Position numbers and translations under genes: made by a program. DNA of 57,340 nt from Planctomycetota bacterium (lineage in GTDB: Bacteria > Planctomycetota > Planctomycetia > Pirellulales > Thermoguttaceae): contig JAKPGL010000128.1 in NCBI GenBank assembly GCA_029550925.1, forward strand, positions 1-57,340, in the 5' to 3' direction. This document shows, piece after piece, positions 4,091 to 57,143 of this stretch (positions are counted from its first letter, which is position 1; every line of letters starts with the position of its first letter). The notes below the pieces were generated by a model. The model saw only the letters and a program-made list of their open reading frames with translations, was not told the origin of the DNA and did not search any database.

Positions 4091-4150
4091 GTAACATTTC
4101 AACCGAACAGAGAACCCCCCTCCTGTCATCCCCGCGGAAGCGGTGGATTC
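4091..4150 (+). repeat. Solo end of the element C family
   Basis: The sequence starts GTAACATTTCAACCGAAC and runs to CCTGTCATCCCCGCGGAAGCGG. It matches the arrangement at 57091-57140 (GTAACAATTCAGCC...CCTGTCATCCCCGCG) and resembles the ends of the element at 39759-39952. No inverted partner end is visible nearby, so it looks like a decayed or one-ended copy. Confidence 0.6.
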
Positions 4151-4177
4151 AGAGGAGAGGACCTGTTTTTTCTGGCT

Positions 4178-4350
4178 GGATTCCCGCCTGCGAGGGAATG
4201 ACGAAGGGGGAACAGGAGGAGGGCACAAGATGCCTGGATTCCCGCTTGCGAGGGAATGACGAAGGGGACCCTCACCCGGCCTGGCCGTGTCCAGGTTACC
4301 CCGAAAAGGGGAGAGGGAGAAGCCTGGATTCCCGCCTGCGCGGGAATGAC
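4178..4350. repeat. Cluster of three REP-like palindromes
   Basis: Three 25-bp units of the form GGATTCCCGC-nnnn-(C/A)GGGAATGAC lie at 4178-4202, 4236-4260 and 4326-4350. Each can fold into a short hairpin with arms TTCCCGC and GCGGGAA or a variant. Related copies are at 10270-10294, 37117-37141, 39787-39810, 39870-39894, 57119-57143 and 57160-57180. The unit resembles the widespread bacterial REP/dRS3-like repeats. Confidence 0.85.
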
Positions 4351-9937: not shown

Positions 9938-10168
9938 AACAGACTCTGGAGTTTACCCAGTGTGGGTTGATCGCCAAATACCGGGCAGAAGCTAAAATTC
10001 GCCCATCTTTCGGGTTACCGCCGGGATGTCGTCCGCGCTAGCACTCCAGCGGGTTGGTATGATCCGAGCTGGGCGGTCCAAAGCGACTTAACCTGGTCAA
10101 TCGCCGTAAATTCCAGCCAATTCGCACATCCCCACGAAATCAACTCTGGGTAAACTCCAGAACAGACT
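9938..10168. mobile_element. MITE-like element A with 8-bp target duplication
   Basis: A 215-bp element (9946-10160) is bounded by a perfect 15-bp inverted repeat: CTGGAGTTTACCCAG at 9946-9960 and its complement CTGGGTAAACTCCAG at 10146-10160. Immediately outside each end is the same 8-bp direct repeat AACAGACT (9938-9945 and 10161-10168), the mark of a target-site duplication. The interior has no open frame and no transposase. It shares the CTGGAGTTT tip with element B at 19400. Confidence 0.8.
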
Positions 10169-10269: not shown

Positions 10270-10294
10270 GGATTCCTGCGTTCGCGGGGATAAC
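10270..10294. repeat. REP-like palindrome
   Basis: A diverged copy of the 25-bp unit (GGATTCCTGCG...CGCGGGGATAAC) lies 50 bp before the oxidoreductase gene, in the same family as the cluster at 4178-4350. Confidence 0.6.
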
Positions 10295-10345
10295 AGAGGA
10301 GGGCCATTCGGCCGAAATGTTTTTTCCTTTTTTGGGAGGTCTTCA

Positions 10346-19220: not shown

Positions 19221-19846
19221 GTCGGAAGTGCTGATCCAACAGAAGAAGGAGTTTGGCCTGCCGGGCCGAGCAACATTCCGGCCTGTTGGCAAAAAAGGCG
19301 AAGGGGAAGAAAAAGAGGCTCTCTCAAAACGGCCTTGCCTATTTACTTCCTCCAGCGGGGAGAATAGGTCGAATCTTTTGAGGCTTCGTTTTGTTAGAGC
19401 TGGAGTTTTGCAAAATGGGCTTGTTCGGGTGTTCGTACACGGAACAGGTCCCTCAAAAATCCTGTGATTTTTGAGGGTCGGTAGTGTACAAGATCGGTGG
19501 AAATCCCAAATTTGCAAAACTCCAGTTAGAGCTTCAAAGTCGTCTCTGGTGTTTGGTCGGCTTTGCCGGATTTGCGGAAAACTCCGAGAAGGGGGAAGAA
19601 AACAGGGAAAGGCTCTTTTACGGCCCAGTTGGCGGGCCGGATGGTGCGGCAAACTTGCTCTAGGGTCTCCATTTTTCTCACAATTAGTAGGTTCGAGTTA
19701 TATAGATTCCCCTATAAATAGTGGTCGGTTGGCCCTTTGGCCCCTCCTTCTGGTTGGCCCCCTAGCCGAAACCCTCGGCTAGCGTAGTATGATAGAGAGG
19801 GTGGTTTTTGGCTGTCGAAATGGGCCAATTCGTTTAGGGTACGAGT
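19221..19846. other. Intergenic region carrying MITE-like element B
   Basis: A 626-bp stretch without a gene. It holds the small element at 19394-19531, an AT-rich patch near 19690-19720 with TATATAG and TATAAATAG sequences but no matching -35 box, and the upstream part of the following lipoprotein gene. Confidence 0.5.
19394..19531. mobile_element. MITE-like element B with central hairpin
   Basis: A 126-bp element (19400-19525) has perfect 15-bp terminal inverted repeats, CTGGAGTTTTGCAAA at 19400-19414 and TTTGCAAAACTCCAG at 19511-19525. Directly outside both ends is the 6-mer TTAGAG (19394-19399 and 19526-19531). In the middle is a perfect 12-bp stem, CCCTCAAAAATC/GATTTTTGAGGG (19450-19461 and 19466-19477), with a 4-base loop. 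There is no coding capacity. The tip CTGGAGTTT is shared with element A. Confidence 0.75.
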
Positions 19847-39218: not shown

Positions 39219-39701
39219 ATGACCGATCCCATCCCGATGACCCGCGCCGGCTACGATAAACTCAAGGCCGAGCTCCAACATCTGGAAACCGTGGAATTGC
39301 CGAAGGTGTTGGATCGGCTGGCCAAGGCCCGGGCCGAAGGCGATTTGAGCGAAAACGCCGAATATCAATTTAGCCAGGAAAGCCGACTCCTGCTGGAAGC
39401 CCGCATTCGGGACTATCGCGACCGATTGGCCCGGGCGTATTTGGTTGATTCTGCGCAGATGCCTCGCGATCAGGTCGCCTTTGGGGCCGTCGTTCGCGTC
39501 AAGGACCTCGACACCGGCGAAGAGGAAGAGTTCTCTCTGGTCGGCGCCGGCGAAGATGACCCCAACGCCAATAAAATTCTCATCACCTGTCCCTTGGCCC
39601 AGGGATTGGTCGGCAAACGAGTGGGCGAAGTGGCCGAAATCCAAGTTCCCGCCGGTCTGCTGCGGTTTGAAATCCTACAGATCCGCTACGAAGAAGGCTG
39701 A
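39219..39701 (+). CDS. greA: Transcription elongation factor GreA
   Basis: GreA enters the RNA polymerase secondary channel and stimulates cleavage of backtracked RNA. The 160-residue length is standard. The N-terminal coiled coil (residues about 8-75) carries the tip acids in ARAEGDLSENAEY (D42 and E45), and the C-terminal FKBP-like domain follows with AFGAVVRVKDLDTGEEEEFSLVG and AQGLVGKRVGEVAEIQVP. The ATG at 39219 has AAAGGATCC before it; the frame continues upstream but without similarity. The acidic EEEE stretch in the middle of the C-domain is slightly longer than usual. It is single-gene. Confidence 0.95.
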   Translation: MTDPIPMTRAGYDKLKAELQHLETVELPKVLDRLAKARAEGDLSENAEYQFSQESRLLLEARIRDYRDRLARAYLVDSAQMPRDQVAFGAVVRVKDLDTGEEEEFSLVGAGEDDPNANKILITCPLAQGLVGKRVGEVAEIQVPAGLLRFEILQIRYEEG

Positions 39702-39744
39702 GACGCTCTGGTTCGGGAAATCCGCTGCTCTCTGCCAGAGCGTC
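39702..39744 (+). terminator. Hairpin after greA
   Basis: GACGCTCTGG (39702-39711) begins directly after the greA stop codon and pairs perfectly with CCAGAGCGTC (39735-39744), with a 23-base loop. No T-run follows, so it could act as a 3'-end stabiliser as much as a terminator. Confidence 0.5.
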
Positions 39745-39750
39745 CAAAAC

Positions 39751-39960
39751 CCAGCCTCGTAACAGGTTAGCCGAATGCAGCACCTTGTCATTCCCGCGCA
39801 AGCGGAAATCTAGGCTTCTTGCAGCCACTACTTGGGAGGAATAACAAAGTAGTCGCCTCATAGGACCCTGGATTCCCGCTAGAGCGGGAATGACAATCCA
39901 GGGCAAATTTCGCTCTAAAATAAGCCCCCTTTGCATTCGGCTAAGGTGTTACCCAGCCTC
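39751..39960. mobile_element. MITE-like element C with 8-bp target duplication
   Basis: A 194-bp element (39759-39952) has terminal inverted repeats of 21 bp, with 19 positions matching: the left end begins GTAACAGGTTAGCCGAATGC (from 39759), and the right end (39932-39952) is the near-complement ending AAGGTGTTAC. The same 8-mer CCAGCCTC flanks both sides (39751-39758 and 39953-39960). Two REP-like palindromes (39787-39810 and 39870-39894) lie inside. There is no coding capacity. A solo end of the family, about 90 bp, is at 57001; shorter ends are at 4091 and 17523. Confidence 0.85.
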
Positions 39961-54157: not shown

Positions 54158-57004
54158 TTGGCCAACGACGATGATCTTCCCCAGGAACCTTCCCCATCCG
54201 ACCCCGGCGATCAGGGATCGGGAGATGTGGAGGGTGCGTCGCCTCCACCGGCAGCGTCGGGCGAGTCCGGCGGTGCGCCCGCGGTAGTGGCGGCTCGGCT
54301 CATTGAACAAGCCATCGAGGATGAGCTTAAAGAAAGCTACCTCACCTATGCGATGAGTGTGATCGTCAGCCGGGCTTTGCCGGATGTCCGCGACGGTCTG
54401 AAACCCTCCCAACGTCGGATCCTGGTGGCGATGCAGGACTTGGGCCTAGGTCCCACCACGGCCACCTCCAAGTGCGCCGGCATCGTCGGCGAAACCATGA
54501 AGCGTTATCACCCCCACGGCGACCAGGCCATCTATCCCACCCTGGTGCGCATGGGGCAGGAGTGGAACACCCGGTATCCGCTGGTCGATAAGCAGGGCAA
54601 TTTCGGTTCGATTGCCGGTCTTCCGGCGGCGGCCATGCGATACACCGAGGCCCGACTTTCGCACATCGCCGCCCTGATGCTGGAAGACCTGGACAAAGAC
54701 ACGGTGGACTTCTTGCCCACCTATGACGAAAAGGGCCAGGAGCCGGTCGTCCTGCCCTCGAAGTTTCCCAACCTGTTGGCCAACGGCTCGCAGGGCATTG
54801 CCGTCGGGATGGCCACGTCTATTCCGCCCCACAACTTGAACGAAGTGTGCGACGCTATTATCCGGGTGATCGACGAGCCGGCGGTCTCGATCGACGAGTT
54901 GTTGGAAATTTGTCCCGGTCCTGATTTCCCCACCGGCGGCGTGATCTGCGGTCGGGAAGGCATCCGGCAGGGATATTACACGGGTCGAGGCGCCGTTGTT
55001 GTCCGTGCACGGGCCAGGATCGAAGAAGTCCACGGCGGCCGATTCCGCATCGTCATCTCCGAAATCCCCTACCAACAGGTTCGGGACCGCATCGAGGAAA
55101 AAATCCACGAAGTCGCCGCCGACGGCAAGATACCCGGCATCGCCGGGCTGCGCAACGAAAGCGACCTGGAAGAGCCGGTCCGTCTGGTCGTCGATCTCAA
55201 ACGGGACGCCGATCCGGAAATCGTGCTGAATCAGCTCTATCAATATACGCCGCTGCAAGATACGTTTTCGCTGATTTTCTTGGCCCTGGTCGATGGAAAG
55301 CCAAGAATTCTTTCGTTCAAGGGGCTGATCGAGGAGTTCATCCGGCATCGGGAAACAGTGATCCGCCGGCGCACGCAATATCTGCTGCAGAAGGCCCGCC
55401 AACGTAAACACACCGTCGAGGGGCTTCTGATCGCCCTGGCGAACCTGGACGAGGTGATTCAGACGATCCGCACCTCGGCGACTCAGGCGGAGGCCAAACA
55501 GCGGCTGATGGGCATTGCCTGTCCGGCGGCGATGTTGCGGCGGGCCTTGGGCGAGGAGGGATTCCAGATTCTGGTCCAAGAACGAGGGCTGGCCGACGCC
55601 TACAGCCTGACCCCCGTGCAGGCCGACGCTATTTTGCGGATGACGCTGGGCCAATTGGTCAATCTGGAGCAAGAGCGGCTTGGCGGGGAACATCGGGGGC
55701 TGCTGGCCGACATTGCCGAGTATTTGCGAATCCTTTCGGACCGCCGAAACATTCTGGAGATCATCCGACAGGATTGCCAGGAGTTGAAGCGGCGGTTCGG
55801 CGACGCCCGACGCACAGAGATCACCGGCGAAGAGATCGGGCCGGTGGATATGGAAGACCTCATCGAAGAAGAGACGATGGTCGTGTCGATCAGTTCCAAG
55901 GGATATATCAAGCGGACGCCGATCCACGCCTATCGGGCGCAGCGGCGCGGCGGCAAGGGACTGACCGGCGCACGGACCGATGAAGAAGACCCCATTGCCC
56001 ACCTGTTTGTGGCGAGTACCCATGATTATCTGATGTTCTTTACCAATCTGGGCCGGGTGTATTGGCGCAAAGTCTATGACCTGCCGCAATTGCCCCGGGA
56101 CAGTCGAGGTCGGGCCATCGTCAACCTGTTGAACCTGGCCGAGGGCGAAAAGGTGGCCGATTGCCGGGCGGTTCGGGACTTCGACCGGCCGGACCATTAT
56201 CTGATCATGGCGACCGCCCGAGGATTGGTCAAAAAGACCGACCTGGCCGCCTACGGACGACCCACTCGGGCTGGCATCATCGCCATTAAACTCCGGCCAG
56301 GCGATGAACTGGTGGATGTGGTGGTGGCCGGTCCGGGAGATGAAATCGTCCTGGCTACCGCCAAGGGGATGGCTATCCGATTCAAACATACGGACGTTCG
56401 CCCGATGGGTCGGGCCGCCACGGGGGTAAAAGGGATCACCCTGGGCCCGGACGATATGGTGGTCGGCATGGTAGTGGCCGATCCAGAAGGACAATTGCTA
56501 ACCGTTTGCGCGAATGGCTACGGGAAACGAACGCCGTTCGGGCCGAACGCCCCGGATCAGCCTGACCAAGAACCCCTGCCCGACGAAGAAGAACCGGCCG
56601 ACGAAGAAACCGCCCCTTCGCCGGCACAGACCGGTATCGCCGGGGTTCATGCCGACGGCCCGTCGGCTGGAGAAGAAGTCGAAGAATCCGAAGAAGAGGA
56701 AGAGCATTCCTCGGCCCGTTGCTATCGCACCCAGCGACGAGGCGGCCGAGGACTCCGGGACATTAAAACCGTGCCGCGAAACGGACCGGTGATCGGCGTT
56801 GTCCGGGTCCACGATGAGGACGAGGTGATGATGATCACCGCCCGAGGCAAAATCCAGCGGATTCCTGTCTCCGATATTCCCATGCGGGGACGAAACACCA
56901 TGGGGGTCCGTGTGATGACCCTGGAAGAAGAGGATACCCTGGTGGCCGTCAAACGCATCCCTGCCGAGGCGAACGGTAATAAAGAGGGGCCGAATTCCAC
57001 GTAA
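54158..57004 (+). CDS. gyrA: DNA gyrase subunit A
   Basis: The 948-residue protein starts at a TTG eight bases after AAAGGA and has an acidic, Pro/Ser-rich N-terminal extension of about 45 residues. The breakage-reunion domain shows KESYLTYAMSVIVSRALPDVRDGLKPSQRRIL, KYHPHGD-type RYHPHGDQAIYPTLVRM and the catalytic Tyr162 (AAAMRYTEARL). The C-terminal pinwheel has GyrA box QRRGGKG (residues 595-601), which marks gyrase rather than topoisomerase IV, and a second similar box QRRGGRG (859-865) after an Asp/Glu-rich insert (about 798-855). At the resistance-determining region the usual Ser83 and Asp87 (E. coli) are Gln123 and Pro127. Its stop codon lies within a dispersed repeat. Confidence 0.96.
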   Translation: MANDDDLPQEPSPSDPGDQGSGDVEGASPPPAASGESGGAPAVVAARLIEQAIEDELKESYLTYAMSVIVSRALPDVRDGLKPSQRRILVAMQDLGLGPTTATSKCAGIVGETMKRYHPHGDQAIYPTLVRMGQEWNTRYPLVDKQGNFGSIAGLPAAAMRYTEARLSHIAALMLEDLDKDTVDFLPTYDEKGQEPVVLPSKFPNLLANGSQGIAVGMATSIPPHNLNEVCDAIIRVIDEPAVSIDELLEICPGPDFPTGGVICGREGIRQGYYTGRGAVVVRARARIEEVHGGRFRIVISEIPYQQVRDRIEEKIHEVAADGKIPGIAGLRNESDLEEPVRLVVDLKRDADPEIVLNQLYQYTPLQDTFSLIFLALVDGKPRILSFKGLIEEFIRHRETVIRRRTQYLLQKARQRKHTVEGLLIALANLDEVIQTIRTSATQAEAKQRLMGIACPAAMLRRALGEEGFQILVQERGLADAYSLTPVQADAILRMTLGQLVNLEQERLGGEHRGLLADIAEYLRILSDRRNILEIIRQDCQELKRRFGDARRTEITGEEIGPVDMEDLIEEETMVVSISSKGYIKRTPIHAYRAQRRGGKGLTGARTDEEDPIAHLFVASTHDYLMFFTNLGRVYWRKVYDLPQLPRDSRGRAIVNLLNLAEGEKVADCRAVRDFDRPDHYLIMATARGLVKKTDLAAYGRPTRAGIIAIKLRPGDELVDVVVAGPGDEIVLATAKGMAIRFKHTDVRPMGRAATGVKGITLGPDDMVVGMVVADPEGQLLTVCANGYGKRTPFGPNAPDQPDQEPLPDEEEPADEETAPSPAQTGIAGVHADGPSAGEEVEESEEEEEHSSARCYRTQRRGGRGLRDIKTVPRNGPVIGVVRVHDEDEVMMITARGKIQRIPVSDIPMRGRNTMGVRVMTLEEEDTLVAVKRIPAEANGNKEGPNST

Positions 57005-57143
57005 CATTTTAGCCGAATGCAGTACCTCCTCACTGCCTCGCAATCGCCCAATCTAGGCTTCTTGTATCCCTCTTGGGAAGAATAAATAACGTAACAATTC
57101 AGCCAAAGGGAGTAGCCTGTCATCCCCGCGAAAGCGGGGAACC
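57001..57143 (+). repeat. Element C family copy at the gyrA stop
   Basis: The sequence GTAACATTTTAGCCGAATGCAG from 57001, with ATCTAGGCTTCTTG and CTTGGGA.GAATAA further on, matches 39759-39850 over about 90 bp. A second end GTAACAATTCAGCC starts at 57091, and the REP-like palindrome (57119-57143) follows. The TAA of gyrA is inside the first GTAACA. No opposing end with target duplication is visible before the window ends. Confidence 0.7.

Follow-up and report, generated by a model that had tools for sequence, protein, structure and literature searches.

CGTC REPs carry the tag CGTC, often in the form TGTC, and those of family 1 (CGTC-1) have an 8-bp stem starting with AT and a 4-nt loop. The units bear a CCA tail and occur mostly as dimers with the tags outside, the partners usually lying 20–100 bp apart, according to a 2013 survey (PMC3733652). 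In that survey, CGTC REPs are without associated transposase genes, and other transposases are left open as their movers. The bacterial MITEs covered there (RUP, NEMIS, ERIC, Nezha and others) are noncoding elements of 70–300 bp, present in many copies, with inverted ends of 15–30 bp and a target duplication. Elements of the IS66 family with 8-nt duplications are also in print (PMC10017437 and PMC3281130).

A 194-bp element at positions 39759–39952 of the window, the whole 57,340-nucleotide stretch of planctomycete DNA that we analysed, shares features with each of these systems. It agrees with the MITEs in all the properties listed above, but its ends appear to be of the IS66 type, and its interior contains an inverted REP pair that is also found outside the element. 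Single-ORF IS66 insertion sequences belong to the same family as the candidate transposase of this genome (NF033517, PF03050), and have in common with the element the 8-bp duplication and ends starting with GT, as in ISDrpg6 (PMC10017437). In contrast to these insertion sequences, the window element is geneless, and what it has in common with the IS66 of its genome is confined to the end sequence; as that IS66 is incomplete in the assembly, a single ORF is only presumed for it beyond the left end. The internal repeats resemble CGTC-1 REPs (dRS3 in Neisseria) in the TGTC/CGTC tag, the CCA tail, the tags-outward dimers 20–100 bp apart and, as far as the window units go, the 8-bp stem starting with AT and the 4-nt loop; nevertheless, most units sampled here are bracketed by transposon-like ends, whereas the survey reports no transposase link (PMC3733652). 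The CGTC-1 dimers of H. neapolitanus, which we compared by description, lie in 41-bp palindromes and are likewise flanked by a conserved inverted repeat. Those repeats were called target palindromes (PMC3733652), whereas 8-bp duplications and a candidate transposase were found here. As in the REPIN/RAYT system, an inverted pair of short palindromes occurs in many copies, but the RAYT-type domain Y1_Tnp (PF01797) had no match (E 0.001) in the draft genome, which is 97.5% complete, and a RAYT was rejected as the REP mover on this ground. Among open-licence literature, searched by titles and abstract openings, we found no description of REP dimers within IS66-type MITEs.

The original prediction described a small element with near-perfect 21-bp inverted ends, an exact 8-bp duplication and two internal REP-like palindromes, and this anatomy was borne out (Table 1). 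The ends are identical at 19 of 21 positions, and the REP-like pattern matches at 39787–39811 with two mismatches and at 39870–39894 exactly. The two REPs constitute a 35-nt inverted pair, 83% complementary, whose members are 56 bp apart with the tags outward. Three matches to the end pattern (up to three mismatches) were found in the window against none in 100 dinucleotide-preserving shuffles; the REP-like pattern matched eight times in the window and never in shuffles. The 152 bp between the ends hold no transposase gene, and the only ORFs of at least 80 aa touching the element (39445–39762 and 39583–39936) both cross its borders. The element starts 57 bp past the stop (39701) of an upstream ORF, which we take from its translation to be a GreA-type gene; the ORF beyond the element presumably encodes a sugar-binding protein.

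Table 1. Positions of the 194-bp element, its parts and related pieces in the window
Feature	Position	Strand	Remark
Left target-site duplication, CCAGCCTC	39751..39758	.	exact copy
Left terminal inverted repeat, putatively IS66-type GTAACA..TTAGCCGAATGCA; here GTAACAGGTTAGCCGAATGCA	39759..39779	+	2/21 differences from IS66 end G000:C224:3389-3409
REP unit 1: TGTC tag, stem ATTCCCGC/GCGGAAAT, 7/8 paired, loop GCAA, tail CTA	39786..39812	+	tag points to left end; class description from PMC3733652
REP unit 2: stem ATTCCCGC/GCGGGAAT, 8/8 paired, loop TAGA (+ strand reading), CCA tail	39869..39895	-	inverted relative to unit 1; tag points to right end
Right terminal inverted repeat; reverse complement GTAACACCTTAGCCGAATGCA	39932..39952	-	pattern match and pairing with left end
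Right target-site duplication, CCAGCCTC	39953..39960	.	exact copy
Second family copy, left part: end GTAACATTTTAGCCGAATGCA and interior (by eye)	57001..57090	+	interrupted by another, degenerate end at 57091-57111
Decayed GTAACA-like end 4091-4111, then REP-like units at 4178, 4236 and 4326	4091..4350	.	additional, more diverged REP-like unit near 4125 (by eye)
REP-like unit, 8 bp later degenerate right end 10303-10323	10270..10323	.	

The window element is far from unique and belongs to an abundant family. Its genome (G000) is a 4.9-Mb draft of 233 contigs, in which the end pattern matched 185 + 181 = 366 times with up to three mismatches, as opposed to no match for the reversed pattern. At least 40 sites are 81–100% identical to the greater part of the element (40 of 323 first-look candidates were scored), and the consensus of the family copies is 196 bp long. 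Among the 30 best-matching loci, 28 have paired ends, the remaining two being left out because no end pair lay near the match; the duplication in these 28 best copies is exact in 14, has one mismatch in two, and has two or more in 12. The duplicated octamers are not the same at different sites, in keeping with insertions that took place independently. We also sampled 837 kb, or 17% of the genome, on ten contigs (nine long ones and the window's own; repeat content may differ elsewhere), which contained 102 ends and 29 pairs. The interiors of 26 of the 29 pairs resemble the consensus interior, and the duplications were exact in 9/29 and had at most one mismatch in 13/29; a paired element at the edge of a contig, which lacks its left flank, was not scored as having a duplication.

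Two Thermoguttaceae bins, G001 and G002, are genus-mates of G000 and have 104 and 157 end matches, respectively. Both keep the order of the GreA-type gene and the substrate-binding-protein gene, and in the orthologous gap of either genome neither an end nor a REP-like unit was found with up to six mismatches allowed. Exact duplications are few among their sampled pairs: none of 13 in G001 (5/13 with at most one mismatch) and one of three in G002, which is consistent with older, decaying copies.

The REP units of G000 fit the CGTC-1 class, albeit some of the matching features are part of the search pattern. The first letter of the tag is free in this pattern (GTC is fixed) and gave TGTC in 51 and CGTC in four of 70 sampled units; the tail is CCAG in at least 46 of the 70 (TCCAG 43, ACCAG 3), where CC is fixed and AG free. 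The 8-bp AT-starting stem and the 4-nt loop are present in the window units but are built into the pattern, and an intact stem is absent in 15 of the 28 full copies. No Rfam match was obtained up to E 1, and a structured RNA family was rejected accordingly.

The original prediction proposed that the REPs spread partly as passengers of the element and suggested looking for REP-like units in or next to GTAACA ends genome-wide. The 837-kb sample contains 70 REP-like units (up to four mismatches), against none for two scrambled patterns: 24 lie within paired ends, a further 23 have one inward-facing end next to them, and 23 are free. Thus, 47/70 are inside inward-facing GTAACA ends, zones that make up 2.05% of the sampled bases. 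When ORFs of at least 150 aa were masked, 35 of 46 REPs fell in such zones, which then cover 10.1% of bases (binomial p 6e-26, a nominal value since REPs that share an element are not independent of each other); masks of 100, 200 and 300 aa gave 28/37 (12.5%), 36/51 (7.7%) and 45/63 (5.8%), respectively. With a weight matrix that accepts decayed ends (threshold 8), an inward end was found within ~200 bp of 52/70 REPs and of 17/1424 random places drawn from all DNA, genic included. The opposite picture, of a unique 194-bp element and REPs mostly apart from such ends, does not describe G000.

The association is weaker in G001 and absent in G002. In the former, 16/37 REPs are inside ends, and 13/26 outside ORFs of at least 150 aa, compared with 8.8% of bases; in the latter, the corresponding figures are 2/21 and 0/16, compared with 3.0%. 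The weight matrix gave 23/37 REPs against 66/1405 random places for G001 and 12/21 against 121/1468 for G002. The free units of G000 include inverted pairs devoid of recognisable ends (C88:13140-13275 and C173:74906-75035) and a place (C42:14295) where 113 bp resemble the MITE interior at 74%. No flanking inverted repeats with a duplication were found around the 15 free places searched for other ends. Taken with the limited number of full copies that keep an intact REP (13 of 28), the 23 free units, the weak or absent association in the genus-mates and the unrelated palindromes between these ends in other bacteria leave the passenger idea supported in part: the element may be one vehicle that spreads REP hairpins.

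As for the mover, many IS66 ends start with GTAA. A Pfam IS66 search of G000 returned three matches, a long ORF on contig C224 and C-terminal fragments on C232 and C4. The C224 protein scored 196.3 bits with NCBIfam transpos_IS66 (NF033517; cut-off 180) and 91.8 bits with DDE_Tnp_IS66 (PF03050). Its ORF, whose first start codon is TTG and which leaves the contig, starts 44 bp inside an end identical at 21/21 positions to the commonest end of the family, and agrees with the MITE consensus over 23 bp, GTAACATTTTAGCCGAATGCAGT; both ends of the window element differ from this end at two positions each. The 21/21 end recurs, again 44 bp away and with nearly the same sequence in between, at a second, broken N-terminal IS66 copy on C149. 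The right end is seen solely in the C232 fragment, which terminates in a diverged end, GTAATATTTTAGCCGTTTGCA, while the C4 fragment has a diverged end with three mismatches 546 bp upstream. No complete IS66 copy is assembled in the draft of G000. The fragments on C149 (L194, near 619) and C232 (L064, near 235) both adjoin an end of the CTGGAGTTTTG type, an arrangement that would result if IS66 had gone into that other element or next to it.

Relatives of the C224 protein at E 1e-40 or better are present in six of 147 genomes, G000 included. The closest, 82% identical, is in G041 and has one GTAACA-type end, TTAACACTTTAGCCGCTTGCA; the relative in G039, which belongs to another genus, is a gene fragment with GTAACA-like ends on both sides, GTAACAGTTTAGCCG.. 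and GTAACAGCTTAGCGG... Neither draft of the genus-mates has a PF03050/IS66 match, and among 11 other genomes bearing GTAACA ends, all draft assemblies, five have a PF03050 match, and the simple rule that GTAACA ends imply an IS66 gene in the genome was rejected. Near the 17 IS66 loci examined in end-bearing genomes, a weak end (three mismatches) was found at three and a close end at none. Simple internal deletion of IS66 was also rejected as the origin of the element, because the two have no sequence in common beyond the end, which on the left amounts to 23 bp. Judging from the shared ends and the place of the transposase frame behind them, the window family is most likely an IS66-type MITE.

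We consider the element to be a non-autonomous IS66-type MITE carrying a captured CGTC-1-type REP pair, which spread with it in this species, and assign this reading a probability of roughly 0.8. An IS66-family (TnpC-like) transposase of the same genome would recognise the 21-bp GTAACA..TTAGCCGAATGCA ends, both ends of the full IS66 being GTAACA..GCCGAATGCA under this reading, and would insert the 194–196-bp unit with an 8-bp target duplication. The tags-outward REP pair, an independent intergenic repeat, would have become cargo between the ends and multiplied along with the element in this species. We infer from the sequences that TnpC moves the MITE; there was probably a single capture event, in an ancestor of the family, with the free REP presumably coming first and the cargo second. 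The REPs thus appear to be a repeat in their own right, which the element acquired and multiplied in this species. The original prediction had the structure right and left IS66, the likely mover, unnamed. G000 offers a concrete candidate mover for CGTC-1-type dimers, namely an IS66-family transposase acting on the bracketing ends, and this suggests that some of the target palindromes reported to surround REP dimers may be the ends of transposons.

The same ends occur in other bacteria. A scan of named genomes with the end pattern gave at least 62 stretches, mostly from Planctomycetota including Brocadiia and Kuenenia bins; among the matches listed are a Hydrogenedentota bin and single matches, possibly due to chance, in Ignavibacteriales, Bacteroides and Flavobacterium. 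Ten end-bearing genomes have between 1 and 62 ends each (up to two mismatches). Many end pairs in these genomes have exact 8-bp duplications and differing palindromic interiors. When 15 interiors were compared, those from the window's genus shared sequence, much of it REP-related, and those from outside it were mutually unrelated barring weak Dive96/IP29b/casp40 matches. The palindromes also occur apart from GTAACA ends, just as GTAACA ends occur with different palindromes. The core palindrome of G147 was outside ends at 8/8 sites (400-kb sample), and that of G148 was inside ends at 1/3 (288-kb sample). A palindrome starting with CGTC matches 52 times in G149; of 14 loci, which were chosen by hand and do not represent a sample, two lie inside GTAACA ends, three inside another element, which is 137 bp long and has GGTGTACGGAAAGTC ends, one beside a single GGTGTACGGAAAGTC-type end (by eye), and eight have neither.

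These elements bear on a further possibility, compatible with the MITE reading, that the palindromic core has a function in IS66-type MITEs and is selected for bringing the ends together or as an RNA hairpin, so that separate lineages would each have captured palindromes of their own, unrelated to the others. Indeed, the same ends bracket different palindromes among Planctomycetota, with a Brocadiia bin as one example, and in the Hydrogenedentota bin, and the core palindromes are also found free, as at all eight sampled sites of G147 and eight of the 14 chosen loci of G149. Among the 40 distinct elements whose duplications have no more than one mismatch, 20 show strong folding of the core (z < -4), against 0/78 flanks. 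Nevertheless, the other 20 cores have no strong structure, and the 40 elements (43 minus three sites seen twice, from the overlapping loci L007/L008) are not independent, as two still overlap and several are of the same family. Moreover, three copies in G000 with good duplications (L006, L019 and L030) fold no better than shuffles, and MITEs in general often form hairpins. On sequence comparison we regard a selected core as possible, at somewhat less than even odds. Equally tentative is the wider proposal that IS66-type ends have been a recurrent vehicle for palindromes common in the host, captured independently by Planctomycetota and by one Hydrogenedentota bin or more; the palindromes concerned would be CGTC-1 REPs in G000, a CGTC-starting one in G149 and others elsewhere. 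If it is true, IS66 TnpC would be one missing mover of CGTC REPs, and a palindromic core would favour transposition.

How well the REPs are preserved inside the element bears on a second alternative, in which the REP itself is mobile and inserts or converts into pre-existing MITEs as its target. An intact stem (at least 7/8 pairs) was found on the left in seven, on the right in ten, on both sides in four and on at least one side in 13 of the 28 full copies; of the 14 copies with exact duplications, eight have at least one intact REP and two have both. Accordingly, 15/28 copies lack an intact stem, which excludes the REP as a strict hallmark of the element. The intact stems are of the types ATTCCCGC/GCGGGAAT, ACTGCCGC/GCGGCAGT and ATTCCTGC/GCAGGAAT, with matching changes on both sides, and half-replaced arms are seen in many full copies, which together hint at conversion between palindromes. 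That stem variants (ATTCCCGC/GCGGGAAT, ACTGCCGC/GCGGCAGT or half-replaced) differ between copies at the same position suggests that such conversion was local, and free REPs exist in G000 as well as in the genus-mates. Against this, the REP units hold a fixed position and orientation in aligned copies, the surrounding interior being shared; of the REPs within 60 bp of an end, 29 have the tag toward it and three away. With no RAYT found in G000 either, we think it unlikely that REPs invaded MITEs already in place.

It is very improbable that the ends belong to some other 8-bp-duplicating transposase family, with the IS66 match merely nested beside a MITE end, as the missing complete copy and the CTGGAGTTTTG-adjoining fragments might be taken to indicate, because in both C224 and C149 the transposase frame begins at the same distance inside the same end behind nearly identical sequence, and the G039 relative has such ends on its two sides.

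Other small elements were noticed along with the IS66-type MITEs. The 137-bp element of G149 (L275, L276 and L277) contains CGTC-starting palindromes as does the GTAACA-ended element of that genome, and L275 is flanked by an exact 9-bp duplication, TTCTTAGTG. In G150 (L279–L284), GTAACA-ended elements of 216–306 bp have an interior rich in AATCCGAAA-type repeats that fold into a long hairpin, with exact 8-bp duplications in three of the six. The window itself also carries small elements with CTGGAGTTT ends, one of 215 bp (9938–10168) with an exact 8-bp duplication, AACAGACT, and one of 126 bp (19394–19531) with an exact 6-bp duplication, TTAGAG. Ends of this kind number 23 in the sampled 837 kb of G000 but one and four in the 400-kb samples of the genus-mates.
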